A DNA stretch of 64,000 bases. It comes from Moniliella sp. 'wahieum'. Lineage: Eukaryota > Basidiomycota > Moniliellomycetes > Moniliellales > Moniliellaceae. Position 1 is the first letter of the stretch; every line of letters starts with the position of its first letter. Made by a program: the position numbers and the translations under genes. Where the stretch lies: NCBI GenBank assembly GCA_003971905.1, contig RSEE01000034.1, positions 186,001 to 250,000 on the forward strand, read 5' to 3'. Of the stretch, positions 31,158 through 63,755 are shown one piece after another. Under the pieces are notes generated by a model. The model saw nothing but the letters and a program-made list of their open reading frames with translations, did no database searches and had not been told where the DNA came from.

Positions 31158-31674
31158 ATGTGCTTTCAGTGTCTCTATACACTGCTGTGGGCCTTTCCCT
31201 TTTTTAGTAGAAAATGGAGTCCGACACCAGGAAGTGAGATCAGCAAACACCTGCCTACATGATATCGCCCCAGTTTCTAAACCGAGGCACTTATAATACT
31301 TTCTCTAGATAGGCAGAGTGCACCTACAACCCCCATATAGACGTTGCATTCCGGAACCATCCCTAATAGACGGAAGACAAGACTGAATAGAAATGGGCCG
31401 GTAGCTCACCCATCCTACCTTCCCACTCAGGCGGGCGGAAGTGGGGCGGCGGAATGGAGAGGGCAACCCTAGTGGTGGTGCGGCAGGCGGCGCGAGCGCA
31501 GTGTGGGGTGTGGCGTGGACCGGCGGGCGACTGGCGCGGTGCGACAGGCAAGCAGGGCAGCGGGAGAAAAAAAACCACAGCTGGGCGTGTTTTTTTATGG
31601 CGCACTTTCTCGTCCAGGCGCCGCTGCTTCCCATCCCCCACCTCCTGCGCCCCGAGCGTTGTACGGCACTCGCC
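31158..31674. other. Intergenic region, KAP123 promoter side
   Basis: No gene. GC-rich in the second half with an A8 run near 31568 and T6-8 near 31590. Leads into the importin ATG. Confidence 0.4.
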
Positions 31675-35125: not shown

Positions 35126-35882
35126 CTCCCGAGGGTTCGTTCTTTCTTCTGGTCCTTTGCGCCTCCCCTCCCCTCCCCCCCACCCCCCCAAAAAGGGCAC
35201 CCCATGAGCTACCCTCGGATCATCATTTGCCTTGGATAAGAGTGTGGATGGGGGCGGTGGCCATAGCTCGGCTTCGTGCTTCCACCCCATCCTACAATGC
35301 TGGTCTTGGTCTGTCTTGCCCATCTTGCCCAGCATCCGCCTTTCCGCCTTATATCTTTTTCGACTTCTCTTCGCTCCAGTTACCCCGCCCCTTGGGCCTC
35401 TCTTTTTCTCTCCCTGCTTAAATTTCACAGCGTTTTCCATCTCCCTCTTCTGAGCCTTAGTAGTTAGTAGATCCCTTGGCGCCCAAGGCTGCACGTCATA
35501 TGCGCACTGTTGTTTCCTGCTTGTGCGATACGACGGACGGTCGTCTGGTGGGAGCGAGAACTGTCAGTGGCAGGTGGTGGTTCAGGAGGGCCTAAGGTGT
35601 CTCCTTCCCGAGTGTAGATATGCGGGCAAGATGCGACGAGAGCCATCAAAGTCCCCGGCGTGTGACAGCTGCCATGGCCCTGTCAATTAGACAGTCTACT
35701 GGTCGGAGGGGTAGATCGACAGTTCCACCCAAGTCAGTGTGGTTCTGCCGGCCACGGGCATGCGCATAGCCAACCCCAGACAGCAAGGCCAAAAGGGTAT
35801 AAATACTGGATGAGGTCGACGAGGGCCAGTGCCTTTCAGATATCCACTGTCCAACGCGCAGAATCTGGTACGCGTCTTCACC
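35126..35882. other. Intergenic region downstream of KAP123
   Basis: C-runs right after the stop, then pyrimidine-rich sequence; no gene seen. Confidence 0.4.
35798..35805 (+). promoter_or_regulatory. TATA box (TATAAATA)
   Basis: Good TATA match on the plus strand, about 78 nt before the ATG of the small frame at 35883. Confidence 0.35.
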
Positions 35883-39100: not shown

Positions 39101-42100
39101 TAGACTGTGGCCCATGACCGCTTGTACCGGAACGTTCCACAGCCGCAATAGGCTCGCCAGACTAATCTCGACAGCCACCAGGCCCAACTGAGAGTGGACC
39201 GGAGAGGGTTCCAAGCCCCCCGGCCCTTGGGCGGGATAGATGGCACTGATAAAGTCACCAAACCCAAGTGCCTTGGCCACATCGTTGCATTTGTCCATCG
39301 AGGCGCGGAAAGGAGGACTGCGGGCATAAAGCTCATGACCCATGTGGGAGTACTGCGATCCCTGGCCAGTGAAGGCGTAGGCAATCCCATGACCCTCGGC
39401 CGGCGGACGCGGGGCTTCCATGGGTTCTTGCTTTTCCAACAAGGTGCGCACCTCGTGGATCGTGTGGACCAATCCAACGACACGGTACGTGTGGTGTTTC
39501 CGCGTAGCCAGTGCCGCGCACAGGTGAGCGACGTCTGTGTGGGGATGCGAATCAAGCCAGGTAAGAAGACGCTTGCAATTCTCATTGACCGAGTAGAGGG
39601 TCGCGCCTGAGATAATGAGCAGTGCTGGTACCCGTTCGGTCAAGTGCGGGCTATCCTCCACCACCGGCCCAGGACGGACGATCAAGGAAGAGTTTCCGGC
39701 CGCGGCGGAAAAGTTGGCCACCCCATAGACACGGTCATCGTGGTGCTCAGAATGGGGCGGTAGTGGAGTGTTTTCCATAGGGATCTTGAGGCCATCCATG
39801 GGGGGCAGCCGAGTGTTGAGCTGCGTCCGAATGCCAATGTGACGTGGGACAATCTGATGCTTGGAGACCAGAAGGGTCTTGAGCAATGCAGAAGCCCCTG
39901 CCGTAGACTCAGAATGACCAATGTTGGCCTTGACGCTTCCAATCACTAACGGCCGGCCTGCCTCCCGGATTTTGGCATACGTCTCCACCACACCAGTCAC
40001 CTCTTCAAAGTCCCCTGCTGCGGTGCCGGTTCCGTGCATCTCGTTGTAAGCAATCTCGTTGGGGGTAGGGATCTTAGACGCGACCATGGCGCTGCGGTAG
40101 AGACGGCGTTGTGTGGGATTGTGCGGGTGAGTAATGGAATAGGTTTGTCCCGAGTGGTTGGTCACCGCCGAGTTGATTACCCCGAGGATATTGTCACCGT
40201 CGTTGACAGCGTCCGAGAAGCGTTTCAACACACAACAAACGCTAGCGCGTCAGCCCGTGAATAGCCATCGCCCTTGTCGTCCAGCGTCTTGCATTGTCCC
40301 GTGTCGGATAGGAAAAATCCACGGTCCAAGCCAATGAAGATTTGCGGCTGAGTAAGGACGTTGATCCCGCCAGTCAGGACGCGTCGGCTTTGCCTTGGAG
40401 CAGAAACGAACAGGCGCTTTCAATGGCAACAAGCGCACCGGAGCATGCCGTGTCACACGTGACGGATGGCCCACCCCAACCGAAGAAGCGATTGATTCGG
40501 CCGGGGATGTTGGCGCGCAGCAGGGCCGGGGCAAAGGGGGCAGAGATGGTGTAGGAGCGATTCTGTTGGTAATCGTCACTGCAGATACCAAAGATGGACC
40601 CAAAGCGGGACGGGTCATTGGAAGTACCTTTACGCGGAGCGTACCCTGCCGAGTCAAGCGCTTCGACTGCGACCGAGAGCGCAAGGCGTTGCTGTGGGTC
40701 CAGTTTGCGTGCCATTGTTTCGTCCATGCCGAAATAGGTTGGGTCCCAAATCCACGGGCGATCAATAAAGTTGCCCTGCATTGCCCGCATGGTGTTCTTG
40801 TCGCGGTACGAAGGGGTGCGGTAATCATCAACGTTAAAGAGGCGCTCGGGAATACGCTGGCACATGTCTTTGCCGTCCAGAAGGTTTTGCCAAAACGCAT
40901 CGACGGTCTCGGCTCCGGGAAGACGACAGGCCATGCCCACCACGGCAATCGACTCGGCCACGGTACCCCGCACGGCAGAGAGATTGACGGGCCAGTGCTT
41001 GTCAATCGGTTTAAAGTTGCCCTTGGCTGTGTCTGTCAGCACATCAATCGGCTCCGACAGGGTGACTTGAGCTTGAACGGCGTGGTAAGCCAAGTCCATT
41101 TGGACACTCTGGAGCAAAATTGAATTGGCTCCGATAGAGAAGAGCGCCACCTCATGCGCTTGGTCCGACGCGGTAGCCTGGGCTACGATTTGAGAAAAAT
41201 CAAGAGTGGTGGGTAGGGTCCGTCCACTGATTAGGTCACGGAGGACAAAGGTGCGCTTGGGCATGCTGCCATGGAGAAAGGCGAGATCAAGACCTTCAAT
41301 GAGGGGCATCAGGTGCTGCTCCACCACATCGAGAGCTGTTTCGACAGGCAGATAGCCAATCCCTTCAGCCGGGCTCGAGGCGAATCCATTGACCAACAGC
41401 TCGAGATCGAGGGCACCAAGGCTCATACGGGTGCCAGTGACCAAGGTAAAGTTGCCTGCTTTGATCGAGAGCATCTAAACAGAGAGGCCGAGACGGGGTT
41501 AGCACCAAAGATAAAAACGAATAGGGATGTGAAAAGAAAAGAAAAAACATACCTCTTTGGCGCCAGTCGGACCGACAAGGTGGGCTGCCGTCTTGGGAAC
41601 AATGAGGCGGTGGCTAAGGTTTTCAGCACCCATCATGGTAGCTTGGGTGTCGGTGGTATAGGCCAACGACCAAGCCAGAGCGACGGCTTGAGCACCATAG
41701 TGGGCCACATCGGTCATTCCAGTCGAGGCAGTGAGCACGCTCTCGGCTAGTCCGTAGGTGGTGAGATCGAGGAAGCCCTGGGTGCCGTACTTGAGGAGGC
41801 GGGCCAGTAGGTGGGGCTCGACGCCAGCTGTCACAGTGTTGGGGTTGAGGCCGGTGCTAGCGGCGATGATGGTAGCAAAGATAGCAATGAGTTCAAGCGC
41901 CGGGGTGTAAAGCGGGTCTGCGCTGAGGGTTGCCAGGGTGTTGGGAGCGGCAAGCTCGGCGAGGCTGAGGCAGGCCGCCTGGGGCTCCTCGCCGTTGGTC
42001 ACCAACATCTTGGCAACTTGGACATTGAGTGCGGAAAGAGAGGATTGAAGAAAGGCGGTGAGAAGCGGGAGGGAGGAGGAGAGACGGAGGAGAGTGGTGA

Positions 42101-42773: not shown

Positions 42774-45495
42774 TCACGCTCTGCGTCCCTCTGCCCCCGT
42801 GTCTGGCTCTGAGCCTGGCCCTGGCTCGGACGCAGCCTGTGTCATGGGCGCGAGCCAGGGCGGGCGCTGGGACAACCGAGTCTTGGCGATCGCCGAGGGG
42901 GACGCCAGAGCAACCCTCTTGTTCGTTCCCCTACCGCAGTAAGACGAACGTACCAACGTCCGACCTGTCTCTTGTCCCGGCGCAGAGGCTGGCGTTGCTG
43001 GTGTGCCTGGCGTGCCTGGTGTGCCAGGGGTCAACTGGACCCCCGACCCCGTCGTTCCAGCTGTTGAAGTAGCAGAACGGCCGGCAGCAAGACGGGCAGC
43101 GAGCGAGCCTGGTGCGGGACGGTGGGTCCAAGGTCGGTCGGCGAGGCGGGTGGAAAGTAAGGTCCGCTGAGGCGTAACGTCCTTCCTAGTCGAGTTAGGT
43201 CGCGCGGGCGGGACGGGGTACGACAAAAGGCGACGCCCCGGGCGGTGGGGTGGCTGACCAAGGTGCGTTGGGACTCCTCCGATCCGAGCGTCGACAAAGG
43301 CGGCGAAGGCGTTCGAGTTCGCCGGGCAGGGGTCAACATGGGGGTGGCTGTTGCTGGTTGTTCCGCTCGGCGTCCAAATGGGAAGCCGAGGAGGAACGTT
43401 TTCGTTTCCCTGGAATCGAATCGGGGGCCTTGGCCTTCGTCGCGAATGGAGAGCTAGGCGGCAAAGGCGGTGTTCGCGTACGGGCTGGGGAACGGGGCCA
43501 GTCCGATTGAAGCATGGCCAACGCCCTTGCTGCACTTTGCGTCCTCCCCTGAAGCAAGAGAGGAGGCGCAGTGAACCGTGATCTGTCCTCGGCTCCTGGG
43601 ACCGGGGCGCAACTGCGGGCTGGGTCTAAGCGGGCCAATGGCGCGTCCCCTCTCGGAATACATGTTGGGATCGTCGGGCGGTAGGCGAGGCAGGCGCGAA
43701 CGTGGCGTGTGACGGTAGGCAACAGGTGAGGCGGGCGTACGACTGGCAGAGCAGCGGGATCAACAGGCCTTGATGACCATTGGCCTGCCCTGCCGTGGAG
43801 TGGAACGAAGATCGGATTCGCCCATGAGCCCTCTCGTGCGACGCAAGTAGGATGGTGTGCGAGGCGTGTAGCCTTGCCACGACGAAAGCGCGCGCCGCAT
43901 AAGAGAGGGGGTAAGCGTGTCTGGGTTGCGGGCTGATGGGAATGCAGTTCCAGTCCTGGGTCACGAGAGACGTGGGTGGGGAGGGAAGAGCACAGCTCCG
44001 ACATGTATACGCTTCTGGTGATCCGACCGCGCCGACGCACGTTTGGTGGAACGTGCGCTGGCAGTGCTCGCATTGCACAGTGGGTCGAGCCGCGTTGGGC
44101 AACCGCAAAAGCACGTTTCCGCCATGGGCGTCTCTCTTCCCCTGATTGAGAAAAGGACAAGTCCGAGTCCGAGTCGGAGAAGGACATTGAAGGGGAATCC
44201 GTATCGGAGGAAAAAGGGGGAGGCGTGGCAGGACGAGCCCTAGACAGCAATGCGCTGTTCTTGAGGGAACAGGGGTGCGCGGGGGATGGCGCACAGCCTT
44301 GGCTGGTGGTGGGAGAGAGGGCGGCAAGGGGTCCGGTTGCTTGCGCTGCTTCTTGTGAGTCTTATTCCAAGCGCAGCAAGACAGAACATGAGCCACCATG
44401 GGGGGGTGTGGGAGTGCGTCTGGATTGGACTGCTGCAGACTGCCGGTGTGAGCGTGGGACCTGGAAGAAGAGGAAGGGAGCTCGCGCTCGTGAAGGATGC
44501 GCAGGGGCACCTCGTCATCATCGTCCGAGCCAGGCTCCGGGGTCTGGACTTTGGCTTCGGTCTTTCCCAGCCGAGGCGAGGCAGCACCAGATGACGTATC
44601 ATCGTCACTTGCTTCTAGCCATGAGGACAGGTCGGCCAGGCGAACTGCGTACTGGGCCTTGCTGCGTTCCGATACTGGTTCCGTGTCGGGAGGCCAGAGG
44701 AGCTCAGGGAAGGTGGAAGGAATGGTGTGTAGGCGCGCGACCGAAGGCGGATGAAGGCAGGAAGTACGGGACAAGCAAGGCGGAGTAGCCCCAAGGGTCA
44801 AGGTAAGAGGGTACTCGAGCTCGGGCTCAGTTGCTGGGGTCGAGGCTGAGGTGAGATGGGACGAAGGAGCTATGCTTATAGCCTCGTCCGACTCGACAGC
44901 AGCAGCAGCGGCAGCAGCAGGCGGGACAGGAACTAGGGAGGGTGGCACAAGGATGCGGCCAACATCGGGCACATCTGTGGGGACGAGAGAACCGATACGG
45001 TCGGGAGAGGGCGAGTGAGGTGGAAAGAGGGATGGAATGCGGTCGAGAAGAGCACGCTTGCGACGCGAGCTGCTTTCGGTGGAGTGGTCGGCTGGGCGCG
45101 TGGACACGGGAGAGGTGTCTTCCGGGGCCACTGCAACAGAAGATGGACCACCAGTTGGGCGCGGCGGGCGGTCCAAACTGGGCCAAGAGGCGGGGTAGGG
45201 ACAGCGCGGCCTGCCTGGGCGGCCAAGGCTGCACGGGTGGGGCGGGAGCGGGAGGGGGTGGCGTGGGGGTTGGGAGGAGACTGGGCTCAGACGTGGGCTG
45301 GGCCTCTGGCTGGCTGGGCGCAGGAGCAGGCGGAGGCTGGGCCTCAAGCGGCTGCTTGTATGCGGGGCCGAGGTCGAGCGCGAGACGGCGGCCATGGTGG
45401 GGGGTGGGCGGGGAAGCACGCGCGGGGGGGGCGCGACGGGGTGGTCCGTAGAGGGCAGCCTGGGAGAAGGCCGGGTGGAGCTGGGGCCCACGCAT
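42774..45495 (-). CDS. PHD-finger protein with long disordered arms
   Basis: Probable chromatin reader. A single PHD finger lies at about 44130-43990: CFCGCPTRLDP, VQCEHCQRTFHQTC and YTCRSC supply the C-x-C, C-x2-C, H-x2-C and C-x2-C ligands. The two halves are in different frames and join if CCC at about 44080 is CCCC. The N-terminal arm (MRGPQLHPAFSQAALYG start, ATG 45495) and the C-terminal arm are Pro/Ser/Arg-rich with acidic patches and TPGTPGTPATPA. The arrangement recalls fungal Cti6-like Rpd3-complex subunits, but the arms are not conserved enough to name it. At least three other breaks (near 45200, 44230, 43400) make the arms approximate. Confidence 0.6.
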
Positions 45496-45682
45496 GGCGC
45501 AGGCGACCGGGAGGCAGGGCAGGCGGCAAGGCAGGCGGCGAGGTGGTGGTGGCAGGCGCAGCACACGAGGGCGGGGGGCGCACGCGGCGGGCTGGCTGGT
45601 CCGCAGGGCGTACAGAGCGACGCAGCAGCTCCATCCTGGCCAACCAGCCGTAGTGCGTCGCACTTGATCCTCAGTGGTCGCG

Positions 45683-45704
45683 CTCACGCGTCACGCGTCA
45701 CGGT
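45683..45704. repeat. Short CACGCGT iteration
   Basis: GCTCACGCGTCACGCGTCACGG, three overlapping copies of a heptamer with an ACGCGT palindrome. Confidence 0.6.
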
Positions 45705-46013
45705 GCTGCTGGAGGCGCCCACGCAGCGCCACGCCCGCCTCGGCTCGGCCTCCCCCCCAATCGGGCAGGCGCGCAGGCCGCCCCCGCCGCACCACAGCCG
45801 CCGTGCCCCAGCCCCCCGTTCGCTGCATCGCCCTTCACGACGCGTGTCACACTGGCCCCCTGCTGCTGCCCCCCCAGCAAATTCTACGGCGTGCGGCCCT
45901 GTGCCGCGCCCTTTTTCCTTCCGCTCCGCGTCGCGTTCCTCCTGAGGTCTGAACGAGCCACATGCCACTTCCAGTTCCGCTCTGCAGCTCCCGCCTGGCG
46001 TCACTCGTCACGT

Positions 46014-46082
46014 GCCCCTCGCCCTCACTAGTCACTTCCGCGCCGTCACGCGTCACGCGTCACGCGTCAGGCCTCAGGTGAG
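46014..46082. repeat. CACTAGT/CACGCGT island
   Basis: TCACTAGTCACTTCC followed by four tandem GTCACGC units and AGGCCTCAGG. Two word types found separately elsewhere are side by side here. Confidence 0.65.
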
Positions 46083-46438
46083 GACCCAGAAGCATAACCG
46101 CATCGCCCCGCCGCAGCTTTTCTCTTCTCAAATCCCAAACGGAATCCCATGCGGCACAGGCACAGGTACAAGCAGCAGTTCCATTCGGTCAAGCAAGTGT
46201 GGGGTGGCAAGTACATTCTCGAGGCACCCCAACCAGGGGCGGGCTATGCCCACCTCGGTACCCAAGAAACGGCAGCAGGGGGTGTCCGGAAGGGAGGAGA
46301 GTGGTCCTATAGGTGGCATGGGAAGAGGTACAGCAAACGGGGAATCGGCGCGCATAGGGTAGCAAGCAGAAAAGGGGGAGGAGAGGGAGAGCAACGCATG
46401 GGATCAAGCTAGATCAAGGGAGGAATGCCCGTGGGCAC

Positions 46439-47632
46439 TCAGGCACGCAATCCCCCAATTTCGGCGCTGTGGGCCTTACCCTCGTAGATCAGTTCGGCCA
46501 TGACCTTGCCTGTGCCGGGTCCGAGAGTAATGCCCCAGCAAGTATGGCCGGCAGCAATGTAGAGTCCAGTCTCAGGGAGGCCATCGATCAATGGGCCGCG
46601 GAAGGCGCCAGCGGGGAGGTAGCAAGCGTGCTGGGCCTCGAGCAGCGCGCCATCGCCCAAGCAGGTAGGAGCAATGATGCGAATTTGTTCCATGAGCTTT
46701 TTGGTCTGTCGCGGTTCGTACCCAATATCATCTGCCAACGCTGGCAACGGCTCATTGTCCGAGCCACCGCAGATGTACACCGTCCCGTCCCCACGCGCAT
46801 AGATCTCCGGCCCACGCGCCACGATGCCCGTGTCACCAAAGCGCATGTCGGTGAAGAGACAGTGGGCGGTCGTGGGTCTGGTACCGCGCAGGATGATCGA
46901 GTGGGCACGGGAACCGCCAACGGTACGGCCCTTGCGAGCGACCTTGCTGTGGTAAAGCAGGCTAGTCGGCTTGACCAGGCTCTTGAACAGTTCGCCGGTC
47001 CACGGACCTGCCGCCACCACCACCCGGTCGCACGCCAGCACCTCAGTACGAGCACCATCCACGCTCTCCATCACCAAGCCCTTGATCGTATCCTCCTCCG
47101 ACAGGAGAATCTCTGTGGCCTTGGTACCAACACGGCACTCGACGCCTTCCTCCTTGCACGCCTCTTCCACCAAGTATTCCACAAGGAACTTGGGCGTCAC
47201 CTGGGCCGTCGAACCTTTGCCGCCCATGTGCTTGGTGGAGGTGACGATCTTGGGGTCAATCCAGTGGAGCTCCTTGGGGCACTTGGACCGATGCTTGGCG
47301 GTATCAATGTTGACCTGCAACGTCTCTACCTCGCGGTACCCCCAGCGCTCCACACCATTGCCCTCCTCGGCAAGATCCTTGTGCAGCTGGTAACTCAAGC
47401 GTGCCAAGGAGGACGTGGAGAAGCCGTGCCAATCACGGGCCAAGAAGCCCCCCGACCGCCCGCTGGCCGAGGCCGCCAGCTCGTAGCTCGCTTCGAGCAG
47501 GGTCACTTTGCTCCCGGCCGGACGATAGGGGTGTGGCCATGTAGTACAAGATGGAGGCGCCAATGATGCCGCCCCCGATGATCACGACGTGCTGGGGGGC
47601 GTGTGGGTGTGGGTGTGCTGGAAGGACGACAT
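46439..47632 (-). CDS. TDA3: FAD-dependent oxidoreductase (DAO fold, TDA3-like)
   Basis: Glycine/D-amino-acid-oxidase fold flavoprotein. The N-terminal Rossmann motif HVVIIGGGIIGASILYY appears once one C is added to a C run near 47595. KVTLLEAS, ASGRSGGFLARDW, RVVVAAGPWTGELF and the C-terminal GLYIAAGHTCWGITLGPGTG follow in order. The pattern, with CGGSDNEPLP and the His in GHTCWG, fits yeast Tda3 and relatives rather than true sarcosine or D-amino-acid oxidases. Length about 397 aa is usual. A second break near 47545 is either one extra base or a lost CA. No introns seen. Substrate unknown. Confidence 0.75.
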
Positions 47633-48415
47633 GGCGGGCAGCAGGAACGAGGATCGATGGTGGAGGTCTGACTGGTGGCGCCTAGCGGCGGGGAGCGGGA
47701 AGAAGAAAGCTGCTGTCGGTACCACATTCGCCGGGTGTCATGCATGGGATGCATGACATCTTCCTACCGACTCCGATTGCGCTGTTGGCGCCACGCTGCG
47801 GGTCGGCGGCACACTGGCCCTGCGCGAGGCAGATCCAGAGCTGCTGTTCCCCAGGGCCCGCTGACGGCATCCGCGCTAGCCGCCCCGCGGCAGTCTCCGC
47901 AAGCCACACCGCCAGAAGGCTTTAGGCAGGCTGGATGCGTGACGCGTGATGCATCCTGGACGAACGGATGAGCCTGTTGGCCACAACGAAGTTCGGTGTT
48001 GGCGCGCTCACCGGCTCACCGGGTTCACCACCAGCTGGAGGGCCTTGTTGTTGCGGCTTGGGGACTGGGCAGGGCTGGACAGGGCTGGGCCCTGCTGGGT
48101 CAGGCTGGACTTGGAGCTCTTGAAGCTCGAAGGCTCACGCGCGCTCACGCGCTCACCCTCACTGCTTCACTGGTTCTCGCAAGTGCCAGTAAGCCCCACT
48201 AGCCACTAGCCTCACTAGCTCACTACGCCTCACGTGTACTCCATACCTACGGTGCTATACGACAATACCCACCATCTCCATTTAGTATACAGTACACTGA
48301 CTGCAGATGGTCTGAATGCTCAATGGATGTCAATGCAGGTCATGCAGGCCATGTAGCCTGACACGGAAGGGCTTCCCAACGTCAGAAGCAGGATAGTTGG
48401 GGGTTCGTGTTTTCG
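47633..48415. repeat. Intergenic spacer with CACTAG and GTGACGCGTGATGCAT words
   Basis: No gene. GCGTGACGCGTGATGCATCC at 47936-47955, GCTCACCGGCTCACCGGGTTCACC near 48005-48030, and CACTAGCCACTAGCCTCACTAG at about 48197-48220. Promoter side of the FAD oxidoreductase. Confidence 0.5.
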
Positions 48416-49671
48416 TTACACCGGCTCCAGGATGACGGCAATGCCCTGGCCACCACCAATGCAGGCTGCACCCAGCGCATACTTCTTATCAAGTCGGTGC
48501 AAGTTGTGGGTCAAGTTGGCAAGGATCCGAGCGCCCGAAGCACCCAGGGGGTGGCCAGAGGAAATCGCGCCGCCAAAGGGGTTCGTGATGTCTTCTGGCA
48601 GCTCCAGCTCCTTTTGAACTGAAAGGAACTGAGCTGCAAATGCCTCGTTCACCTCAATCAGACCCATGTCGCCAATCGTCAGCCCAGCGCGCTTGAGCGC
48701 CATCCGGATGGCCTCGACCGGACCAATGCCCATAATTTCCGGAGCGCACGCCGTCACGCCGTACGACACGATCCGGGTCAACGGCTTGAGACCAAACTTC
48801 TTCACTGCCTCCTCGGACGCCACCACATTGGCAGCGGCACCGTCACAGATGCCCGATGCATTGCCCGCGGTGACTGTCCCGTTCTTTTGAACACAGAGGG
48901 AAGACGGGCAAGCGATTCGGCCGTCGTCTTGGCACGAGGATGCTCATCCCCAGAAATCGTCTCGGTCGTCTGCCAGTCCCATTTGCAGTCAGAACCTATC
49001 TTCCTCCGAACCTCGCGCCATAACAGCAGGGTGGGGTCACGCACCTTCTTCACCGGCACCTCCACCGGCACAATCTCATCAACAAAAGCCCCCTCTGCCA
49101 GACCCTTTTGATACAGCGTCTGAGACCGAAGTGCAAACGCATCGCACTGCTCACGAGTAATACCATATTTGACCGCCAAGTTTTCCGCTGTGATGCCCAT
49201 GGGAGTCGGGTGAGGGTAGGCATCCGTTAGCGAAGCCATTAGCGAATCGACGAGCTTGAGGTCAACACCAAACTTGCCCCCGCCAAAGCGGACGCCATGG
49301 AGAGTGTAGGGCGATTGTGACATGCTCTCTGTACCACCCGTCAAGACCACCTGGCTGTCGCCCACCTTGATTTCCTGCACAGCGTTGATTACGCTCTGGA
49401 AGCCCGAACCGCACAGCCGGTTGACTGTCAGAGCCGGCGTGGTGACGGGCAAGCCGGCACGGTGACCAACGTGACGGGCCAGGTAGGCAGCCGAGTTGTC
49501 GCTAGCGTGCACGTTGCCAAAGATGGTCGCGTCTACCTCGACGCCTTCGGGCAGCTGGGCCAGGGCTGCCTTGGAGGCGATGCCACCCAGGTGGGCAGCA
49601 TTGAAGGAGGAGAGTTTGCCGCCGAATGCGCCAAAGGGCGTCCGCTTGGCTGCAACAATAAAGGACGACAT
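48416..49671 (-). CDS. 3-ketoacyl-CoA thiolase, ACAA2 type
   Basis: Last step of fatty-acid beta-oxidation. The start [16 protein letters not shown] resembles mitochondrial ACAA2, which has no cleaved presequence. The nucleophile cysteine is in [10 protein letters not shown], followed by [20 protein letters not shown], the His in SGHPLGASG and the second Cys in [11 protein letters not shown]. No PTS1 or PTS2 is seen. Intron 48970-49044 (75 nt; GTGCGT, CTGAC, GGCAG) is a multiple of three with no stop, so an unspliced reading stays open. One break near 48893: four A must be five to give [14 protein letters not shown]. It lies downstream of and parallel to the TDA3-like gene. Confidence 0.92.
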
Positions 49672-50853
49672 GGCTGGCAAGAAGAGGAAGCGAAGACGGA
49701 GACGGCAGGTGGCAGAAAAGAGCGAGTGGGCAGGGGAACAGGAGGAATACGCGTGTGGCGCTTCGGCGATGATGCATAGCAGACCTGGCATGCAGCAGCC
49801 GGATTGATCCGGGCCGGGCTCTTACCGGCTGAGCCCCTCACCGACCCCCAGCTACATTCGTATCTCCGCCTGAGGAGGCGCACGGCGCCTGTGAAAGCGT
49901 GAGAAGCATTGTAAGGCGCAGGTGCCACCGGCCACCCAATGCAACGTTGAAATCCCAGCGCGGTTAAGCTGCAAGCATTAGTCCACAGAGTCACGTGTAG
50001 GGAGGCACGTGGCACCCCCAACCCAAGGTCCCTGAGGTCGGAGGACGTCGAGCCTGTTAACGTCATCGATCATCCTGCTCCAGCAGCACATCGTATCAGA
50101 GTCACTAGTCAGACCCAACCTGCGCCGTGAGCGCGTGAGCGCGCGAGCGCTTTTGAGCACGCATAGACACAGTAGCTTAGAAGCATTTGCTGTAGAAGAT
50201 TGACCAGCCCGGGAGAAACTGAGTTCCATTCTGAAGTAGACGGAAATGGAGGAAGCGCAAGAGAAATGCATGTACCAACAACGTATCTGTGTATACACAA
50301 CAGATCCCTTTGAAGCACCACATAAAGTGAGCCACCCATAGAACCCAAATGCCCCGGGCACTGGAGTAAAGACAGCAAGGCAAGCGAACCAGAAGCTGGA
50401 CTCACAGGCGGATGTTATACACTTCTTCGCCCACTATCCACATTGAATCAAAGTAGGGTAGTGCTAGTGTTTACCGCTCACATGCATGGCATGCCTACCA
50501 CTCTCATTCGTATCCACACGCGCTACATCTGGTCTGAAAGCGAGTGGCGCGCGCCAGAGGATCCCGACTTGCTGGAGACTCCACTGACTGCATTCCAACT
50601 TGGGCTTGATGCCAACAAGCAGCACACGCCGGATGCCAAGCCTGTTAGGCGCAGCGCATTTGTTTTGTCTCGGCCAGCCTTAAGCTCTCTCTGTAAACGG
50701 TATGAATGCAACAGTAGAATTCTCATCTGACCCACAAATGTAGGCACGACACAAAAAGTCCGAAGCGATGCAAGACGATGGTACAGTGTTTTTTCTTTTT
50801 TCTTTTTCTCTTTTTTCATACTTGTTGAGGATCAGAGATCAGCTTGTCGAACG
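49672..50853. other. Intergenic region
   Basis: A GTGAGCGCGTGAGCGCGCGAGCGC run at 50125-50150 and a CACTAGTCAG word near 50103. A 95-codon frame at 50443-50730 has no motif and I do not call it. Confidence 0.4.
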
Positions 50854-51460
50854 TTACGCAGTCGAGGCAGAAATAGGCTGAGAAACAGAAGGGGAAGAAG
50901 CAAAGACTGAAGTCGGCTGTCCTGGTCCCGCACTCCGTTGATGAGCCCTCGACGAAAGTAAGTCGTAGAGAACCCCAGTGGCACCGCCAAGACTAGCACC
51001 ACCTAGGACACCGTTCACGAGCCCAGCACGACGGACTGGGGGGGCACAGGGGAAAGTTAGCTGCCAACATGTTTGACCACGCGCAGAGCATGGAAAAGAG
51101 GAGGAGCGAGCGTACACAACAGAGCAGGCATAGCCAAAGCACCAATCGAAGCACCTAGAAGGAAACAATCTGTATGGCCGCATATCGTGTGGCACATGTA
51201 CAAAAAGAACGGTGAGCTCTCCCAGTTTCGATCGTGTCTTCTCAGCAGGCAGTGTGCAGGAGTACCAAGACGTACCTTCTGTCCGAATGCGATGCACATC
51301 CGCCCGAATCGTCTCCGCTGCGTGGAAAGTGGCCATGGGAGCTTGGTTGGCGATCTGGAATCCGCATGCCGTTGCACCAATAACTCCTCCGATGAGGGGC
51401 ATAGCCCAGCTGTATACAGCACGTCAGAAAGAAAAGGCCAAGGTGGTAGAGGAAGAGGAG

Positions 51461-51512
<52 letters not shown>

Positions 51513-51857
51513 GCAATGGAGTACACACCTAGTGCGCAGGGCTGCGCGGAAGGAAAAGCCCCTGCGGGCGGCGTAGAGCAGGTAGAGGGGAGGCGCAAGC
51601 ACTGTGGAGAGGGTAGCTGCGCCCAAGGCAGCCTTGCCGACAAGGTAGCGGCGGTAGCGCTGGGCGTCAATGATGGCGGTGATCGGCGGGCGTGTGTCCA
51701 TAGAGTTAGATGCAAGAGGCGAAGTCTGGGCATCCCCCTCCGTGGCAGCAGACGAGGAAGACCCGCGGGTAGCACGGTGGGGCTGAGCAGCCGTAGCGGT
51801 GGCGGCAGCAGCGGGGGTGAGGGCGGTGCGGAGAGAAGCGCCGGTGGCGGTAAGCAT
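50854..51857 (-). CDS. Unrecognised small membrane protein, Gly/Ala-rich helices
   Basis: Split gene with about four hydrophobic segments: VGKAALGAATLSTVLAPPLY, then PLIGGVIGATACGF, GASIGALAMPALLCTLAPPL and GLVNGVLGGASLGGATGVLY. The N-terminus MLTATGASLRTALTPAAAA is Ala/Arg-rich without acids, suggesting mitochondrial import. The glycine-rich hairpins recall Tim17/22-type proteins, but I cannot assign it. Introns at 51410-51528 (119 nt) and 51155-51275 (121 nt) have good signals. A third gap near 51030-51065 ends CCCCCCAG but its donor is poor and the phase needs one correction. The first intron contains a 47-nt dinucleotide tract. Confidence 0.6.
51463..51509. repeat. (GA)n microsatellite inside an intron
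   Basis: About 23 uninterrupted GA units. On the coding (minus) strand it is a CT tract between donor and branch site of the 51410-51528 intron. Confidence 0.95.
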
Positions 51858-52541
51858 GGCACAGAGGATGGGTGGAGAAGCGGTGGTGGTGTGGCAACGG
51901 GCAAGGGAGAGAGATGGAGGTGGGGAAAGCAGAGCCCCCCCCACAAAACGGTCCGAGCACCCAACCCCAGTAGGGGCTGTAGTCACAATCAGTGTGTCAT
52001 CAAGCGCATGTGCTGCCTCTGGTAGGGGCGATGGCGCCCCCACATGCGAGCTCACGCGCTCAACCGAGTGCTGGGGGTACGGCCTACGATCTCAGACCAG
52101 CGCCCGGCCATCGGCGCTTGAAGCTTGACGCTTGACGCTCCGTGCTCGGTGCTCGGCGCTCGACCGTCTCTTCCCCAGTGCATTTTGATTTACTGTGGGG
52201 CTCCGCACTCAGAGGAGCCCTGTTGATGCATGATATATGATCGGTGATCCCAGGCGCTCGGGCCACCAGCCGGCCAGAGAGCGGCAGGCGGCGACCGACG
52301 CTGTGCTTGGGCAAGCGTACTGCTGCCCTGTGCACCCTTCTCCTCACATGTCACAGGTCACAGGTCACATGGTCGTTCAACGTTCATGACGTTCATGTCA
52401 CATGTCACGTGCCCTCCCCATCACACCTGCATCACCTGCATCGCCACCCTCGCGCGTCACGTGCATGCACAGCACCCCTGCCTTCAATTTCCACCCGAGC
52501 GAGCGCCGCTCGGCCACCACCGGCCACCCGTCCATGCACCC

Positions 52542-57675: not shown

Positions 57676-60024
57676 CTAGAGCTTGGACTTGCAGCAGGCA
57701 GCCCCCGCATTGGCAGGCACGGAAGCCGGGTCTTCGGTAGGCTTGATGTCCATCGCAGGGTTGCGAGGGAAGAAGAGAAATTGGGTTTGAAGTAAAATGA
57801 GACTTCATCCGAGGGCATGACAGGGAAGCTGGAGGAGAAAAGTGGAATGGGTCAGTCAAAAGAAAATAGAGAATGGGCAAGAAAGGCACATACTCCTCGG
57901 CGCGGGGCAAATGGGTAATGCCCGTTGTGAAAAAGACGACAATATCCTTGTTGCGGATGGGAGCTGTGCCATCGCCCACCCAAGCTTCGACCGTGTCGTC
58001 GGGCGTCTTGGTGGTCTGCACCAACATGCTTCCCAGCAGGGTACAGCCGGCCCTCCTCATATGGCACAGTCCACAATGCGTGCTTGGCAAATGGTGCGCG
58101 GGTGGCTAAGCTGTCCTTGTGCGCCAATAACTTGGGTTGCTGCGGATGACCAACTTGAATCCCACGGGTTTTTGGTTGGCATAGTGCTTTGTTCTCATTC
58201 ACAATCATCCACCCCCGCTCCGAGTCGGCATGCGCATCGCGCACCCCATCGCCAGTTCTTTCAAACGTCGTTGCGGTGCAATGTAGGCGTTTCCAGCCCA
58301 GTTGCGCGGATGGCCCGTGGGGTAGGGAGACGACTCCACATGTTGTTCCACCACACTGTTCAGGGGGCCATCAATGTGGGGGTCGATGCGAACGCTGTGC
58401 AAACCAGGGTTAGAGAAAAATAGGTTGGAATAGATGCGCAGGGGGGGGGCATAAACCTAAACAAGTGCTGATGGTACTGGGCGTTGATCCGGGGTGCCAC
58501 TTCATTGCCGTAGGTGGTCGTTTCCCCAGGGCCCAGAGGCGAGAGGTTGAGAATTCCGGTCAGATTGAGCTGCAACCCAGGTACCGTCAAGGAAGAACTC
58601 CCACGAAGCCTGAAACAAGATATCGTTAGCTTATCACGCAATTGGGATGGGAAGGAAACGGAAGGCGAAGTAGAGGGTGGGTCGCTTTGCATACCTTGTA
58701 CTCGTAGTTTGCCACAGTATACCGACGAAATGACAAGCTTGCGCTGGCGCACCGTGGCCCGCAGACCGCCAGGCCGGAAATCAGCATGGGTCCATGCTGT
58801 GCCGGCATTTCCTCGTGATGCAGATAGCGTTGCGAATGGTACGGAATGATCCATCGTGTTGGACCACGTGCCCATCCATGTACTCAATGCTGCCCAGGCA
58901 ATCGCACCCCAGCGACAACTCGTTGGCCAACATCCCCAGCCCGTACTCACCCACATCAAACGCAAACTTTTTGTACCAGGGGTAGGGGGGAGAGTAGGGC
59001 ACCACATCTCCGACAACGAGGCGCGATTAGAAACAACGGTCGCTCCACGGGTTTTCAGGCTGGCGCCAGGCGCTTCCGAGTCCTTGTACGAAATGGTAGA
59101 GAGGACAATACCTTCGCGCGGGTGAAAACCAACGTGGATCTTCCACTTTTGCCACTCTAGCACATTGTTTGCACGGAAAAAGGAGACGCCTTGGGGTTGG
59201 ACCACCTGGAGCGGCTTCAGATCGTCCCGGAACTCAAGCGGTTTGGTCCCTTCTGGGTTCTGTACCATTTTCGGGTGCCACTCGTGCTTTTTGCGCGGGG
59301 GGCCGTAGCGCGGACGCAAGGCTGGATCTGGCTTGGTGAAGCCAGCAGGTGGAGGCGCACTGGTAGCAGATGTGGACAGGTCGCGATTGGGGCCCTGGGT
59401 TCGCATGGGAGGGTAGTCAATTGCGAGCACCTCACCCGTGTTGCTGTCAAAAACAGGCGCAAAGTCCAGGGGATGCGCATAATGGTTATCGTCGGGGCTC
59501 CCAAAACGGGCATAGCAGTACGCCTCTTGAAGACGACGGCCGGGGAAGCGTGTGTCCCACCCAACGCACCACCCATCGGCATAGAGCTGGTGCGGCTCAA
59601 CACCAATTTCCTTCAACGCTTCGATCACCATAGGCGACTTGCGCAGCACTTCCTCCGCCTGGTCCAGCTCTTCAACCGTAAGCGTTGGCTGGACCCCCTC
59701 GGGCAGGAGCACGACGTGGTACACTGTGGCTTCGGGTGCCGACGGTGGGAGGGTGATGTACAGTTCGTATGCGCGGCCACCAATGGCATCAATAAGGTGC
59801 AGTTCGACTTGCCGCTCAATCTTGGTCTTGGGTTTTTCGGCAGCGCCTCCGGGCCATCGAAGGTACTCGATCACTGCGTTCTTCTCGGGCTCTTGCAAGT
59901 AGACATTGGTGATCTTGAAGGCCTTGAGGTGGAGCTGCTCGACGGCATGCTTCTTGGCCACCGCGGTGGCTGCCAGGATCTCGGCGGGCGTGGGCGGGTC
60001 GAGGGGGTGGAAGGGCAGCGACAT
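57676..60024 (-). CDS. Peroxisomal copper amine oxidase
   Basis: Oxidises primary amines (methylamine in methylotrophic yeasts) to aldehyde, ammonia and H2O2. Order seen: N-terminal HPLDPPTPAEILAATAVAKK, WCVGWDTRFPGRRLQEAY, VGFHPREGIVLSTISYKDSE, the catalytic base region FAFDVGEYGLGM, the topaquinone tyrosine in TVANYEYK, copper ligands in QYHQHLF, then ITHLPRAEDFPVMPSDEV. The protein ends SKL, a PTS1 peroxisomal signal. Introns: 58610-58694 (85 nt, right after the TPQ site), 58395-58456 (62 nt) and 57829-57893 (65 nt, CTGAC). Start ATG 60024. Breaks include about 59020, 58805, 58740, 58560 and 57755; each join restores family sequence. Divergent from the formaldehyde dehydrogenase gene. Confidence 0.93.
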
Positions 60025-60627
60025 GGTGGTGTGGGGGGGGGGGAGGGGGCGGCGATTAGGGGCACGAAGAACGGAGTAGATATATAGGCGGCACGGCGCC
60101 CGCCTGGTACCACAGAGGACGGATGGCCGGCCTGGAACGGCAGCCCTCCCGGCCAAACATCCGAGCGTATCTGTCTCTTTGGGGCTGGCGGGGTGGAGTT
60201 AGCTGCTTGCAGGCACAGCTACTATTAGATACTCAACCAGTGCTCAGCTACGTTGAGATTGGGATGATCGATGCTGGATGCTTGATGATAATGACTAGCT
60301 AATGACTAGACTGCCGACGGCCAAAGGCACAGCGGGCGCCGATTATCGCGGCACCCCACCTAGCGCACGGGGCCACTCTCAGCGCGCTTAGCGTTTCCCA
60401 TGCACCCGGAGTTATTAGCACCCCCTATTTGAACATTTAGCACCAGGCACCCTACGTAAGCAGCCACGGCGACACGGTGCGCGCAAACGGAAGAAGGAAG
60501 AAGGGCCGTGCGCCCCGTCGGCGCTTTTGCGGTCCCAGTGTCGTGTGCCGCCCAGAATTAAAAGGGCGGCCAGGCGCATGCGGCAGCTGCCCATCCCCAT
60601 CTCCTTCCTCACCCCCCTCGTCTCCTC
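60025..60627. promoter_or_regulatory. Shared divergent promoter region, amine oxidase / formaldehyde dehydrogenase
   Basis: 603 nt between the two start codons. Contains a TATA box for the oxidase, word iterations TGCTGGATGCTTGATGATAATGACTAGCTAATGACTAG-like (broken at 60268-60310) and a GC-rich leader before 60628. No gene in it. Confidence 0.5.
60079..60088 (-). promoter_or_regulatory. TATA box of the amine oxidase
   Basis: CCTATATATC on the minus strand, about 57 nt before ATG 60024. Confidence 0.5.
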
Positions 60628-61859
60628 ATGTCGACTGTTGGCAAGCCCATCCAGTGCACCGCCGCCGTTACCTGGGGTCCCGGCGAAGACGCCAAGATCG
60701 AGCAGATCACCGTCGACCCGCCCAAGGCTGATGAGGTCCGCGTCAAGGTCGAGTACACGGGCGTCTGCGAAACCGACCGTTTTGGCGGGTCGGGCAAGGA
60801 CCCCGAGGGAGTCTTTCCTGTTGTTCTGGGCCACGAGGGCGCTGGTGTGGTCGAATCGGTAGGGGAGAATGTGGACAATGTCAAGGTCGGCGACCATGTC
60901 ATCCTCCTCTACACGGCCGAGTGCCGCAAGTGCAAGTTCTGCCTGTCGGGCAAGACCAATCTGTGCCAGGCTGTGCGTGCGACCCAGGGCCAAGGCCTGA
61001 TGCCGGACCGTACAGTTCGCTTCCACGCTCAAGGTGTGTCTTCCCCCCCTGTCGCTCCTCCAACCCCCCTCTCACTTGCTGTAGAATGGTCCATTAACAT
61101 TCTCCTTTTTCCTGTGTTTGACAGGCAAGGACATTTTCCATTTCATGGGCTGCAGTGCATTCAGCCAGTACACGGTTGTGAGCAAATATTCGCTGGTGGC
61201 TGTGGACCCCAAGGCGCCTATGGACAAGATCTGCTGCTTGGGTGCGGTGTGACGACCGGATGGGGCGCAGCGGTCAAGACGGCCAAGGTGGAGGAAGGCA
61301 GCACTGTGGCAGTCTTTGGGATTGGCTGTGTCGGTCTGGGCGTGATTGATGGTTCGGTGTTCCAAAAGGCCGGGCGGATCATTGCGGTCGACATCAACCC
61401 CAAGAAGGAGGCATGGGCCAAGAAGTTTGGCGCGACTGACTTTGTCAATTCGGCCGCTCTGTCCGAGGGCAAGACCATCACTGACCATCTCATTGAGATG
61501 ACCGATGGTGGACTGGACTACACGTTTGACTGCACAGGCAACGTCAAGGTGATGCGGGCCGCGTTGGAGGCGTGCCACAAGGGCTGGGGCGTCAGCACCG
61601 TCATTGGTGTCGCCGCCGCAGGCCAGGAGATCAGCACACGGCCGTTCCAGTTGGTCACGGGACGCAAGTGGCAGGGCAGCGCGTTTGGGGGCGTCAAGGG
61701 CCGCACCGAATTGCCGGGCATGGTGGAGAAGTACCTCTCGGGCCAATTCAAGTTGGACGAGTACATTACCGACTCGACCGACATTGACAACATCAACGAC
61801 TCGTTCAGATCATGACGGGAGGTGAATCGATTCGATGCGTTGTGACGATGCACAAGTAG
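60628..61859 (+). CDS. SFA1: S-(hydroxymethyl)glutathione dehydrogenase (class III ADH)
   Basis: Glutathione-dependent formaldehyde dehydrogenase and GSNO reductase; zinc enzyme of the cytosol. [15 protein letters not shown], the structural-zinc cysteines in [31 protein letters not shown], the NAD loop [14 protein letters not shown], and [21 protein letters not shown] are present. The usual CHTD after the catalytic Cys reads CETD, a His-to-Glu change. Intron 61034-61125 (92 nt; GTGTGT to GACAG). Breaks near 61245 (one G short) and at about 61807 (one C short). With the latter fixed the tail reads [19 protein letters not shown] and ends at 61857-61859. Lies divergent to the amine oxidase and convergent with the DUF3445 gene. 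Confidence 0.94.
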
Positions 61860-62230
61860 ACGCAGCCCGCCCGAATATCCACCCCTCATCTCAATTTATC
61901 TAACCACGTATGTTCCCAACTTTACAGGCTCTCATGCTTTTTAGTCTATGCTTATAGAGGCCGCAGGAGATTGGGGCCGATTAGCGGTTAGCGCTTAGAC
62001 AACTGCGATGACGAAGAGGCGCCTTAAGACTTTAGGCTGATTTGGCCTCATTGTGGATGATGATGCAAGAACGTGTAGAAAGGCATGTGGTCGATGGGTC
62101 CGGGTAGGTCTGGACCACTTGCTACTTATGCGGACAGGTTCTGCATTGCTAAAAGCAGATAAGGGGGTCTGGGAATCAAATGCATCATGTATTAACAATA
62201 CCATGCTCTCGGGGTCATGCACACAGCGAT
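61860..62230. other. Convergent intergenic region
   Basis: 371 nt between two 3' ends. AT-richer than its surroundings, with GATTAGCGGTTAGCGCTTAG at 61978-61997. No gene. Confidence 0.4.
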
Positions 62231-63755
62231 CTAGAACGGATACTTCTTGCGGTCGGCATCCTTATCATCACCAGCCCGTTCTTGAGCTGCTCCTCGTGTT
62301 TGGCGTCGAGAAAAGGCAAGACGTGGTCGACGTACAAATCACCGCCCTTGTACCAGCGCACATCGTCCGGCCAGCAGCGCATCGAAGAAGCCAAGCGACC
62401 AGGCACACCCACTCGTCGACCATAGTGAGAAAGGGGACGATGTACGTGCGCACGGTAAACACAATCGCCTCTGATTTGGGAAGCGACGGAGAGATTGCCG
62501 TTCAGTACGCATGACCAGGTGCTCGTAAAAGCGCTGCTGCTCTGCTTCCGACGATTGAGCATGATGAGCTGCACTGATGGCCATCGGATCGTACCCCGGC
62601 CGGAGCAATCGGGTTGGGATCGTGGCTCTCCTTGGTAGTTTGGTCATAGTACTCTTCCCGCCCGTTCATCAAGCTTCCCCAGTTGATTTCTGCCGGGTCG
62701 GGCATCTCCTTTCCGCCATACGGAAGGGAGGCCAGGTCGTACGCGCTCGACTCGCCCTTGGGACAGAGTTGCAGAAAAAGTTGTTGCGGCTGATAATGTC
62801 GTCGGGGTCATGCGGGCAAAGTACTTGTCCATAGGACCCTGCAGCTTGGCCTTGTACTGCGGTACACTGCCTTCATATGCAGCTCCTGCAGTGTCAGCCC
62901 CAGTTTGTCGGACAGACGCCAAAAGCCGGCCGTGCACGCGCTCCCGCCAATCACTTGGAACTGATCTCCGCGGGTCGGGTCGCGATCAAAAGGAACGTGT
63001 CGTCCGGTTGAGGCTGCCGACCATCTCGAGTGATCCCTCAGGGTGGTAAGGTCGTACACCTCTTTCAATTCACCTGCCCGCTCCACCGTGTCGTTCCCTT
63101 ACCCGTCAAGATAGGCAGGCAAGACGTGCAGCCGAACCGCCACTTGCTCGCCCGACGAAGAGCTGTGCTCTAACCGAAAAAGTCAGGGTATTTGGTACTC
63201 AACCAATGGCCATGCCCAATCTCCAGAAACGGGCCTCGTGCCGGCCATCGTCACTGGCAAAATGGGTTGGCATTTTCCGGCATGGTCTGTTGCCGCCACC
63301 GACGCAAGGTGTGTGGTACCGAGGAAAGTGACGGTCCAGCCTAAGCCAATCCGACCAGCCGACCTTGACAAGGCCCATGTTGATAGGGTAAATGGGACCC
63401 CAGCGGAACGGACGGTACTTGAACGTTCGGGAATGTCGGATGCACCCCGGGCTCTACCTCGCCTTCCCATGCGAACTTTTGCTGGACTGGCCATAGGAAC
63501 AATGACATAGATACGTTAGCGTTTGGGTTTTTGGTTCCAGCCAAAATACAGATCCGGAAGACGGGAGCGTACCTTAGGATCCGAGGCAAGAGCTGCGACG
63601 GGCTTCTTGACTTGCTGTTGGCGTTGGGCAAGCTGTTGCGCAATCAGCAGGGCGATGGCAGCGACGAGAGCAACCAAGACGGCATGCTTGCCATGCGCCT
63701 CGAACAGGGGCACGAGACTGCTGGCGCTGGTGGTGCTGTTGGCGATGACACTCAT
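62231..63755 (-). CDS. DUF3445 / heme-dependent oxidative N-demethylase-like protein
   Basis: Member of the DUF3445 family. A bacterial relative is a PAS-fold heme enzyme that demethylates dimethylamine to methylamine and formaldehyde. N-terminal anchor: HAVLVALVAAIALLIAQQLA. Then GEVEPGVHPTFPNVQ, a YRPFRWGPIYPINMGL-type block, DWLRLD, the tract GGSACTAGFWRLSDKLGLTL, NNFF, the strongly conserved RTERQSLRRFPKSEAIVF, and YKGG with PFLDAKHEEQL, ending KKYPF. These blocks follow family order but lie in several frames; many one-base breaks (63486, 63400, 63240, 63100, 62880, 62500, 62255). Intron 63487-63572 (86 nt, CTAAC). ATG 63755. It could be a decayed copy, but breaks are of the same kind as in essential genes nearby. 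Confidence 0.8.

Follow-up and report, generated by a model that had tools for sequence, protein, structure and literature searches.

Gene content of the locus

Three neighboring genes in the 64-kb stretch of DNA analyzed here (the window, part of contig C34) were assigned to a copper amine oxidase (CAO), a formaldehyde dehydrogenase (FDH), and a member of the PF11927 (DUF3445) family (Table 1). All other contigs mentioned (C6, C22, C20, etc.) belong to the same genome. CAO and FDH are oriented head to head with start codons at 60024 (minus strand) and 60628 (plus strand), while FDH and the DUF3445 gene (FDH stop at 61859, in a shifted frame; DUF3445 ATG at 63755) lie tail to tail. Both arrangements, including the 603 nt between the facing start codons, had been reported correctly in the preliminary description of this DNA, which also placed the three genes properly; that none of the three occupies a clean single frame was absent from it.

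Table 1. Features of the locus, in window positions
Feature	Position	Strand	Remarks
CAO, peroxisomal copper amine oxidase gene (predicted)	57676..60024	-	introns; SKL end; frame changes in second half; Pfam, PDB, alignment with C6, C22, C20
CAO-FDH divergent promoter region	60025..60627	.	603 nt
One-mismatch copy of palindrome TAAGCGCGCTTA	60379..60390	.	holds sole CGCGCTTA of the 64-kb window
FDH, S-(hydroxymethyl)glutathione dehydrogenase / class III alcohol dehydrogenase gene	60628..61859	+	TIGR02818, PDB, 6-copy alignment
PF11927 (DUF3445, HODM alpha-subunit-like) gene	62215..63755	-	N-terminal membrane anchor (predicted); heavily frame-broken; 3' limit approximate

The DUF3445 reading is spread over three frames and is more broken than CAO or FDH, each of which also changes frame. 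Private single-base indels were observed in all four CAO copies, in four of six FDH copies (the coding sequences on C6 and C20 had none), and in all six copies of a karyopherin gene, which is presumably essential and displayed 3–15 breaks per 3.5-kb copy. As most of the copies compared are similarly broken, the broken frames most likely stem from an unpolished assembly, and we take assembly error rather than pseudogene formation as the default reading, though less firmly for DUF3445. The assignment of the DNA to a fungus builds on three other features: a non-reducing PKS whose domains include a product-template-like one, an mRNA triphosphatase of the fungal/protist type, and a DUF6533 match of borderline strength.

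The open pieces of the window CAO matched PF02727, PF02728, and PF01179 (N2, N3, and enzyme domains) above cut-offs. The best PDB match was the Hansenula methylamine oxidase (1ekm/1a2v, E 5.6e-39); a second Hansenula-type structure, 3loy, and phenylethylamine oxidases matched more weakly. The pieces contain TVANYEY and YHQHLF, fitting the TPQ precursor motif T-x-x-N-Y-(D/E) and the copper ligands H-x-H, which we take to be the marks of copper amine oxidases. The protein ends in CCKSKL followed by a stop at 57676, and the SKL, a C-terminal PTS1, is kept in all four aligned copies (window, C6, C22, C20). Domains, best structural match, and conserved C-terminus agree with the earlier assignment of a copper amine oxidase ending in SKL. 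We infer that CAO is a Hansenula-type peroxisomal enzyme with methylamine as its presumed substrate.

FDH has one intron at about 61036–61124 and a frame change near the C-terminus. Its best PDB match was a class III alcohol dehydrogenase (ADH; E 6.7e-49). TIGR02818 was the best of the 23 families listed, the broken and intron-containing window frame reaching 476 bits against a cut-off of 544; scored exon by exon, no FDH copy exceeded that cut-off. Class III enzymes are marked by zinc-ligand cysteines and an arginine after the structural zinc lobe; in the alignment with the human class III enzyme, FDH has these cysteines and, within AVRATQG, the arginine. The residue following the catalytic-zinc cysteine is E, not H. 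By homology, FDH is best assigned to class III ADH and would act as an S-(hydroxymethyl)glutathione dehydrogenase.

In the window DUF3445 gene, colinear PF11927 pieces were found at profile positions 114–144, 144–171, 186–225, and 234–272 (E-values 0.00059, 0.00017, 0.0011, and 0.23, respectively), all below threshold; three of the seven pieces submitted gave no PF11927 match. The window copy is not above the PF11927 cut-off and is missing from the genome-wide PF11927 search list, and the sister copies on C45 and C64 exceed the cut-off with 179 and 127 bits. The C45 copy matches 5lte (E 3.3e-9), the bacterial haem-dependent oxidative N-demethylase HODM, and a conserved His near its VPQY/PVP motif aligns with that structure; 'HDOD-type', as the family had been labeled before, is a slip for HODM-type. 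An N-terminal membrane anchor is predicted in six of the seven copies, that of the window included. No DmmA- or DmmB-like protein was among the open frames scanned next to the window and C64 copies.

Conservation of the CAO-FDH pair and placement of DUF3445 genes

The divergent CAO-FDH pair recurs on C6, C22, and C20. C22 and C20 are alleles, and the near-identical pairs C22/C20 and C18/C21 were each counted once. The window pair shares 75–76% (CAO) and 81–82% (FDH) DNA identity with these copies, whose intergenic stretches comprise 1032, 1094, and 1075 nt (C6, C22, and C20, respectively). Beyond the pair, one 30-bp match is all that C34 shares with C6/C22/C20 in flanking DNA. Judged by this comparison, CAO-FDH is a conserved unit, the pairing being kept at three diverged loci while the flanks changed. 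FDH also occurs without CAO, at C29/C117.

The six other DUF3445 copies detected lie on C45, C13, C64, C90, C30, and C3. On none of these six contigs was a CAO or class III ADH match obtained. The weak matches on C13 and C45 (44 and 24 bits, respectively) are to dehydrogenases of other kinds. Conversely, DUF3445 queries yielded nothing credible at any of the three other pairs (C6, C22, C20), and the C64 and C45 proteins gave no match on C20, C22, C6, C29, C117, or C31. One DUF3445 piece matching C20 (E 3e-4) was rejected as an out-of-frame tail. By its placement, DUF3445 forms a gene family of its own in this genome, not linked to the pair except for the one neighboring copy on C34. The preliminary description had proposed a joint cluster of all three genes and had named unlinked genes in relatives as the finding that would speak against it. 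CAO and FDH do belong together; the conserved membership of DUF3445 could not be upheld, and it was copies within one genome that revealed the third gene to be unlinked.

Between about 44.5 and 51.9 kb, C34 is collinear with C31. C31 then carries, in inverted orientation, the counterpart to window positions 393–1681, and neither the pair nor DUF3445 was found on C31 163501–193500. Since this part of C31 lacks both, nothing follows from it on the insertion of a three-gene block.

It is quite conceivable, if somewhat short of an even chance, that the window DUF3445 is a decaying pseudogene brought beside the pair by rearrangement, so that CAO-FDH alone matters. Aligned to the C64 protein (42% identity over 276 residues), it requires 16 frame changes, or 5.8 per 100 residues, compared to 1.4–3.7 in eight CAO comparisons and 0–1.7 in ten that used other DUF3445 copies. 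The quoted range excludes four of the twelve calibration comparisons, those with the C66 protein, in which only 30–63 residues aligned. The end of C34/C31 collinearity between 51.9 kb and the pair would fit such a rearrangement. However, when guided by the C45 protein the alignment needs 2.6 changes per 100, the window copy retains 25 of the 33 columns that do not vary among the other six, and breaks by indels are frequent in this assembly, as the karyopherin copies demonstrate.

A sequence element in the promoters of formaldehyde-disposal genes

The CAO-FDH promoters have the 8-mer CGCGCTTA in common. It occurs once in the 64-kb window, twice in 21.5 kb of C6, three times in 20 kb of C22, and three times in 19 kb of C20, and every one of these sites falls in the CAO-FDH intergenic stretch; the background is 2 sites in 195.7 kb. 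The exact palindrome TAAGCGCGCTTA occurs at four sites in the 69.5-Mb genome, two in CAO-FDH promoters (C20, C22) and two before the gene for S-formylglutathione hydrolase (FGH; C18, C21), 194–198 bp upstream of the presumed ATG. A control pattern yielded two exact sites, so the case for the palindrome rests on where its sites lie. The one-mismatch form, to which the window site belongs, is not enriched (64 sites compared to 75 for the control). Formate dehydrogenase promoters were set as a test before their upstream DNA was looked at, and CGCGCTTA was found 366 bp (C21) and 397 bp (C18) before the ATG. The element is absent upstream of the formate dehydrogenase gene on C135, at the loci of FDH without CAO (C29/C117), and at the CAO loci L001, L004, L007, L026, and L027. 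At least one common 9-mer was obtained in 16 of 200 shuffles, making a shared 9-mer weak by itself, and nine of the 13 bipartite half-site matches fall in other places. Taken together, the shared element suggests a methylamine/formaldehyde regulon.

GATA-type nitrogen sites were considered and rejected: HGATAR was not enriched in any of the four CAO-FDH promoters, and raw GATA in C20 (p 0.034) and GATAAG in C22 (p 0.042; both against mononucleotide shuffles) are inconsistent and unconvincing after multiple tests. In the literature searched, the 11–12-mer occurs in artificial P22-repressor test DNA (PMC9976882) and also in PMC3878828.

The half-site GCGCTTA is located 132–516 bp upstream of all six other DUF3445 copies (three lineages) at a background of 0.077 per kb, its length having been chosen after the fact; none lies within 1.2 kb of the window DUF3445. 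These half-sites give hints of co-regulation for the unlinked copies.

CAO and FDH might be neighbors by ancestry only, with CAO acting on other primary amines such as phenylethylamine, benzylamine, or ethylamine. Homology does not fix the substrate, the weaker matches to 3loy and phenylethylamine oxidases would be in line with this, and FDH stands without CAO at C29/C117. We regard it as unlikely, as the pairing persists at three diverged loci with changed flanks and the promoter element is shared with FGH and formate dehydrogenase. A selected three-step cluster, in which DUF3445 would demethylate secondary or tertiary methylamines to methylamine, CAO would deaminate methylamine, and FDH would clear the formaldehyde released by both reactions, appears improbable: it can call on adjacency at C34, the relationship of a sister copy to HODM, chemistry fitting bacterial dimethylamine monooxygenase (PMC5520151), and the half-sites of the six other copies, but these contigs lack CAO and class III ADH, the three other pairs lack a credible DUF3445, and the window copy, aligned to C64, has more frame breaks than any other gene compared and has no nearby half-site, the length of which was set post hoc.

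A putative methylamine module and its relation to known systems

We consider it likely that the locus harbors a divergent two-gene module for methylamine as nitrogen source, co-regulated through the dyad with FGH and formate dehydrogenase, with DUF3445 as a separate gene. This reading builds on gene identities by homology, the conserved pairing, and the sequence element. The case for linking CAO with FDH is that C34, C6, and C22/C20 all retain the pair although the rest of the neighborhood at C34 differs, and that a promoter element is shared with the two enzymes acting next. In the presumed route, CAO would convert methylamine in the peroxisome to formaldehyde, ammonia, and H2O2; formaldehyde would form an adduct with glutathione, which FDH would oxidize to S-formylglutathione; and the unlinked FGH and formate dehydrogenase would complete the conversion to CO2. 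A single transcription factor is the probable common regulator of these genes, acting via a dyad of the half-site TAAGCGC, with TAAGCGCGCTTA as its best form. A rare palindrome at the promoters of consecutive formaldehyde-disposal genes would offer a handle on the regulator of the route.

According to Linder (PMC5816127), SFA1 is essential and AMO1/AMO2 contribute during growth of Scheffersomyces stipitis on methylated amines, and the enzymes by which yeasts demethylate di- and trimethylamine are described there as unidentified. Carbon monoxide and cyanide inhibit these activities, which are assigned to the endoplasmic reticulum; deletion of two P450 genes gave no phenotype, and a non-P450 haem enzyme is deemed possible (PMC5816127). 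The anchored fungal DUF3445 proteins fit this description and provide a single-gene candidate for the demethylase. As a membrane anchor is expected of a yeast microsomal haem demethylase, DUF3445 is a good candidate, and its role as an amine demethylase a good hypothesis. That it represents the microsomal, CO- and cyanide-sensitive non-P450 di-/trimethylamine demethylase and also shares one TAAGCGCGCTTA-dyad regulon with CAO, FDH, FGH, and formate dehydrogenase is a bolder proposal, which we put forward with considerable doubt.

The fungal DUF3445 proteins belong to the same PF11927 family as bacterial HODM (5lte) and DmmABC; in contrast to these, six of the seven fungal copies carry a predicted membrane anchor. 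According to PMC5520151, activity of Ruegeria DmmABC in E. coli needed all three genes, and the bacterial dimethylamine monooxygenase chemistry fits the step proposed for DUF3445. Human ADH5 structures and TIGR02818 are the nearest PDB and NCBIfam matches of the window FDH; where the human class III enzyme has C-H-T-D-A-Y, FDH has C-E-T-D-R-F, identical in the coding DNA of all six copies. The order of N2, N3, and enzyme domains in CAO is that of the Hansenula polymorpha methylamine oxidase (1a2v, 1ekm, 2oov), although the match of CAO is split in two by an additional segment (query 210–263). No description of such a pair with a shared dyad was found in the titles and abstracts searched, and the promoter element of the pair, recurring before two further formaldehyde-disposal genes, appears to be new here. 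With methazotrophic yeasts (AMO, SFA1/FLD, FGH, and FDH1; PMC5816127) the system has in common the enzymes, the presumed flow, and the PTS1 on the oxidase; it differs in that CAO and FDH form a conserved divergent pair sharing a dyad found before FGH and formate dehydrogenase as well.

Conserved pairing of amine oxidase and formaldehyde dehydrogenase

The features of the locus, which lies on contig C34 (window at 186001-250000) of an assembly of 69.5 Mb in 223 contigs, are listed in the table. A domain search of the window identified N2, N3 and enzyme domains in the copper amine oxidase (CAO), and its nearest PDB match was the Hansenula methylamine oxidase (E 5.6e-39). The first exon of the class III formaldehyde dehydrogenase (FDH) was closest in PDB to human class III ADH (E 6.7e-49); the whole frame reached 476 bits with TIGR02818 against a cut-off of 544, because it is broken and contains an intron. 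The start codons of CAO and FDH face each other across 603 nt, as the preliminary description had stated, and the PTS1 it had assigned to the oxidase was borne out by the C-terminus. In FDH, C-E-T-D-R-F stands in place of the C-H-T-D-A-Y of human class III ADH. This reading is supported by the coding DNA of all six FDH copies (window, C6, C20, C22, C29 and C117, the latter being other contigs of the assembly), the only class III ADHs detected in the genome search.

Coordinates of features in the window
Feature	Position	Strand	Remarks
CAO	ATG 60024, stop 57676	minus	ends SKL
FDH (class III alcohol/formaldehyde dehydrogenase)	start 60628, stop 61859	plus	
DUF3445 (PF11927) gene	start 63755	minus	
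Karyopherin gene	31665-35130		further copies at loci L044-L048
Non-reducing-type polyketide synthase pieces	36197-41474	minus	ketosynthase, acyltransferase, PS-DH (product-template-like) and thioesterase domains

Using the DNA of the whole locus as query against the genome, we found CAO copies on C6, C22 and C20 (75-76% DNA identity to the window CAO), each adjoined by FDH (81-82%), and FDH without CAO on C29 and C117 (83-84%). Every pair is divergent, with start-codon spacings of 1032 (C6), 1094 (C22) and 1075 nt (C20) outside the window. C22 and C20 represent alleles of each other (94.5% across 16.4 kb), which leaves three pair lineages; C29 and C117 are likewise alleles (92.8% over 12.7 kb). 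Apart from CAO and FDH, C34 has a single 30-bp match in common with C6/C22 and nothing further with C20, while C6 and C22 have a GH79 gene and further stretches in common as well. Judged from its sequence, CAO-FDH is a conserved divergent module, predicted to act on methylamine and formaldehyde. Window 44552-51862 is collinear with C31:163616-173687 (a thiolase and its neighbours) up to a break before CAO, past which C31 carries an inverted counterpart of window 393-1681.

A candidate regulatory element

The CAO-FDH intergenic regions of C34, C6 and C22 have five 8-mers in common (0.97 expected), a number reached in 1 of 200 shuffles. The single common 9-mer, CGCGCTTAG, is not convincing alone as a shared signal, since as many occurred in 16 of 200 shuffles. 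The 8-mer CGCGCTTA, a longer form of the GCGCTTA half-site, lies between CAO and FDH at each of its occurrences in the 64-kb window (1/1), in 21.5 kb at C6 (2/2), in 20 kb at C22 (3/3) and in 19 kb at C20 (3/3), against 2 occurrences across the 195.7 kb fetched as background. The exact palindrome TAAGCGCGCTTA, a dyad of TAAGCGC half-sites, occurs genome-wide at four sites, in the C20 and C22 pair promoters and in two S-formylglutathione hydrolase promoters on C18 and C21; a control pattern has two sites. With one mismatch allowed, no enrichment was obtained (64 sites, control 75), and the palindrome of the window is one of these 64. A bipartite half-site pattern gave 13 sites in the genome, four of them at three pair promoters and nine elsewhere, versus 3 for its control. 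The element is absent within 1.1 kb upstream of FDH on C29 and C117, and from the CAO loci L001, L004, L007, L026 and L027. Tandem TTAGGC/TAAGCGC-like repeats resembling the half-sites occur at C36:414769, C77:177246, C89:43155 and C23:551102.

The two S-formylglutathione hydrolase matches in the genome are PF00756 esterases (C21, 274 bits; C18, 180 bits; cut-off 282), and in both TAAGCGCGCTTA lies 194-198 bp before the presumed ATG. Formate dehydrogenase upstream regions had been chosen beforehand as the next test; CGCGCTTA was present 366 (C21) and 397 bp (C18) before the ATG, whereas on C135 the 4 kb preceding formate dehydrogenase lack it. A shared regulatory dyad spanning the pair, the hydrolase and formate dehydrogenase is plausible from these upstream positions. 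On C135 (139857-147538; L004, L007, L055), about 5.3 kb separate a copper amine oxidase of a second type (plus) from formate dehydrogenase (minus); here too an amine oxidase is paired with an enzyme of C1 metabolism, and the 4 kb fetched between them contain no GCGCTTA.

Linkage and integrity of DUF3445

The preliminary description had joined DUF3445 to CAO and FDH in a candidate three-gene cluster, which did not hold up as a conserved unit in this genome. A profile search of the genome placed PF11927 matches on C45, C13, C64, C90, C30 and C3, and genome searches detected neither CAO nor class III ADH on these six contigs; all these searches give lower bounds, since that for PF11927 missed the broken copy of the window itself. 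Weak matches to other dehydrogenases were obtained on C13 and C45 (44 and 24 bits). In a direct search of the pair regions, the queries were the C64 and C45 proteins together with seven open stretches from the window DUF3445; no match was found in the fetched C6, C22, C29, C117 and C31 regions, and a single piece matched out of frame in that of C20. The C64 copy is flanked by an OPT transporter and an M28 peptidase. By gene order within this genome, DUF3445 is outside any conserved cluster.

None of the three genes (0/3) forms a single clean frame in the window. Private deletions in the four-copy CAO alignment, introns and flanks included, numbered 9 (C34), 4 (C6), 3 (C22) and 11 (C20), and in the six-copy FDH alignment 3 (C34), 0 (C6), 3 (C22), 0 (C20), 1 (C29) and 3 (C117). 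The karyopherin copies carry 3 to 15 private frame-changing, non-triplet indels each (6, 10, 9, 15, 15 and 3). As this presumably essential gene is broken in all six copies, an unpolished assembly is pointed to as the source of the frame breaks. Several window genes are duplicated elsewhere in the assembly at 70-84% identity, and many gene copies form near-identical pairs (92-95%; C22/C20, C29/C117, C64/C90), a pattern we read as a hybrid, polyploid or mixed assembly.

The window DUF3445 aligned to the C64 protein at 42% identity over 276 residues with 16 frame changes. Guided by the C45 protein, it showed 2.6 frame changes per 100 residues; the same program gave 1.4-3.7 in eight CAO comparisons and 0-1.7 in ten comparisons among other DUF3445 copies. 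Measured against C64, this copy shows heavier frame damage than the other genes compared; it keeps 25 of the 33 columns invariant across the six others. The damage may reflect either decay to a pseudogene or poor assembly of the gene.

DUF3445 as a candidate amine demethylase

A hydrophobic 19-residue stretch (score at least 2.4) lies near the presumed N-terminus in six of seven DUF3445 copies; that on C3 has none at a threshold of 2.2. GCGCTTA precedes the presumed ATG by 132-516 bp in all six copies outside the window, at positions kept inside each of three lineages (background 15 in 195.7 kb, about 0.04 per 520 bp), and the longer CGCGCTTA only upstream of the C13 and C30 copies. The window copy has no GCGCTTA within 1.2 kb. 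These half-sites are suggestive, motif length and upstream distance not having been fixed beforehand.

The mentions of fungal DUF3445 found in the literature searched were in passing only: a figure abbreviation in PMC10406608 and an entry in an A. niger expression table in PMC6320622. A possible role of DUF3445 in amine demethylation, proposed earlier by bacterial analogy, is worth testing. According to passages of Linder 2017 (PMC5816127; Scheffersomyces stipitis), the identity of the di- and trimethylamine demethylases is not known, two deleted P450s were ruled out, and the activities are located in the endoplasmic reticulum and sensitive to carbon monoxide and cyanide. The bacterial dimethylamine monooxygenase is described in PMC5520151 as DmmABC.
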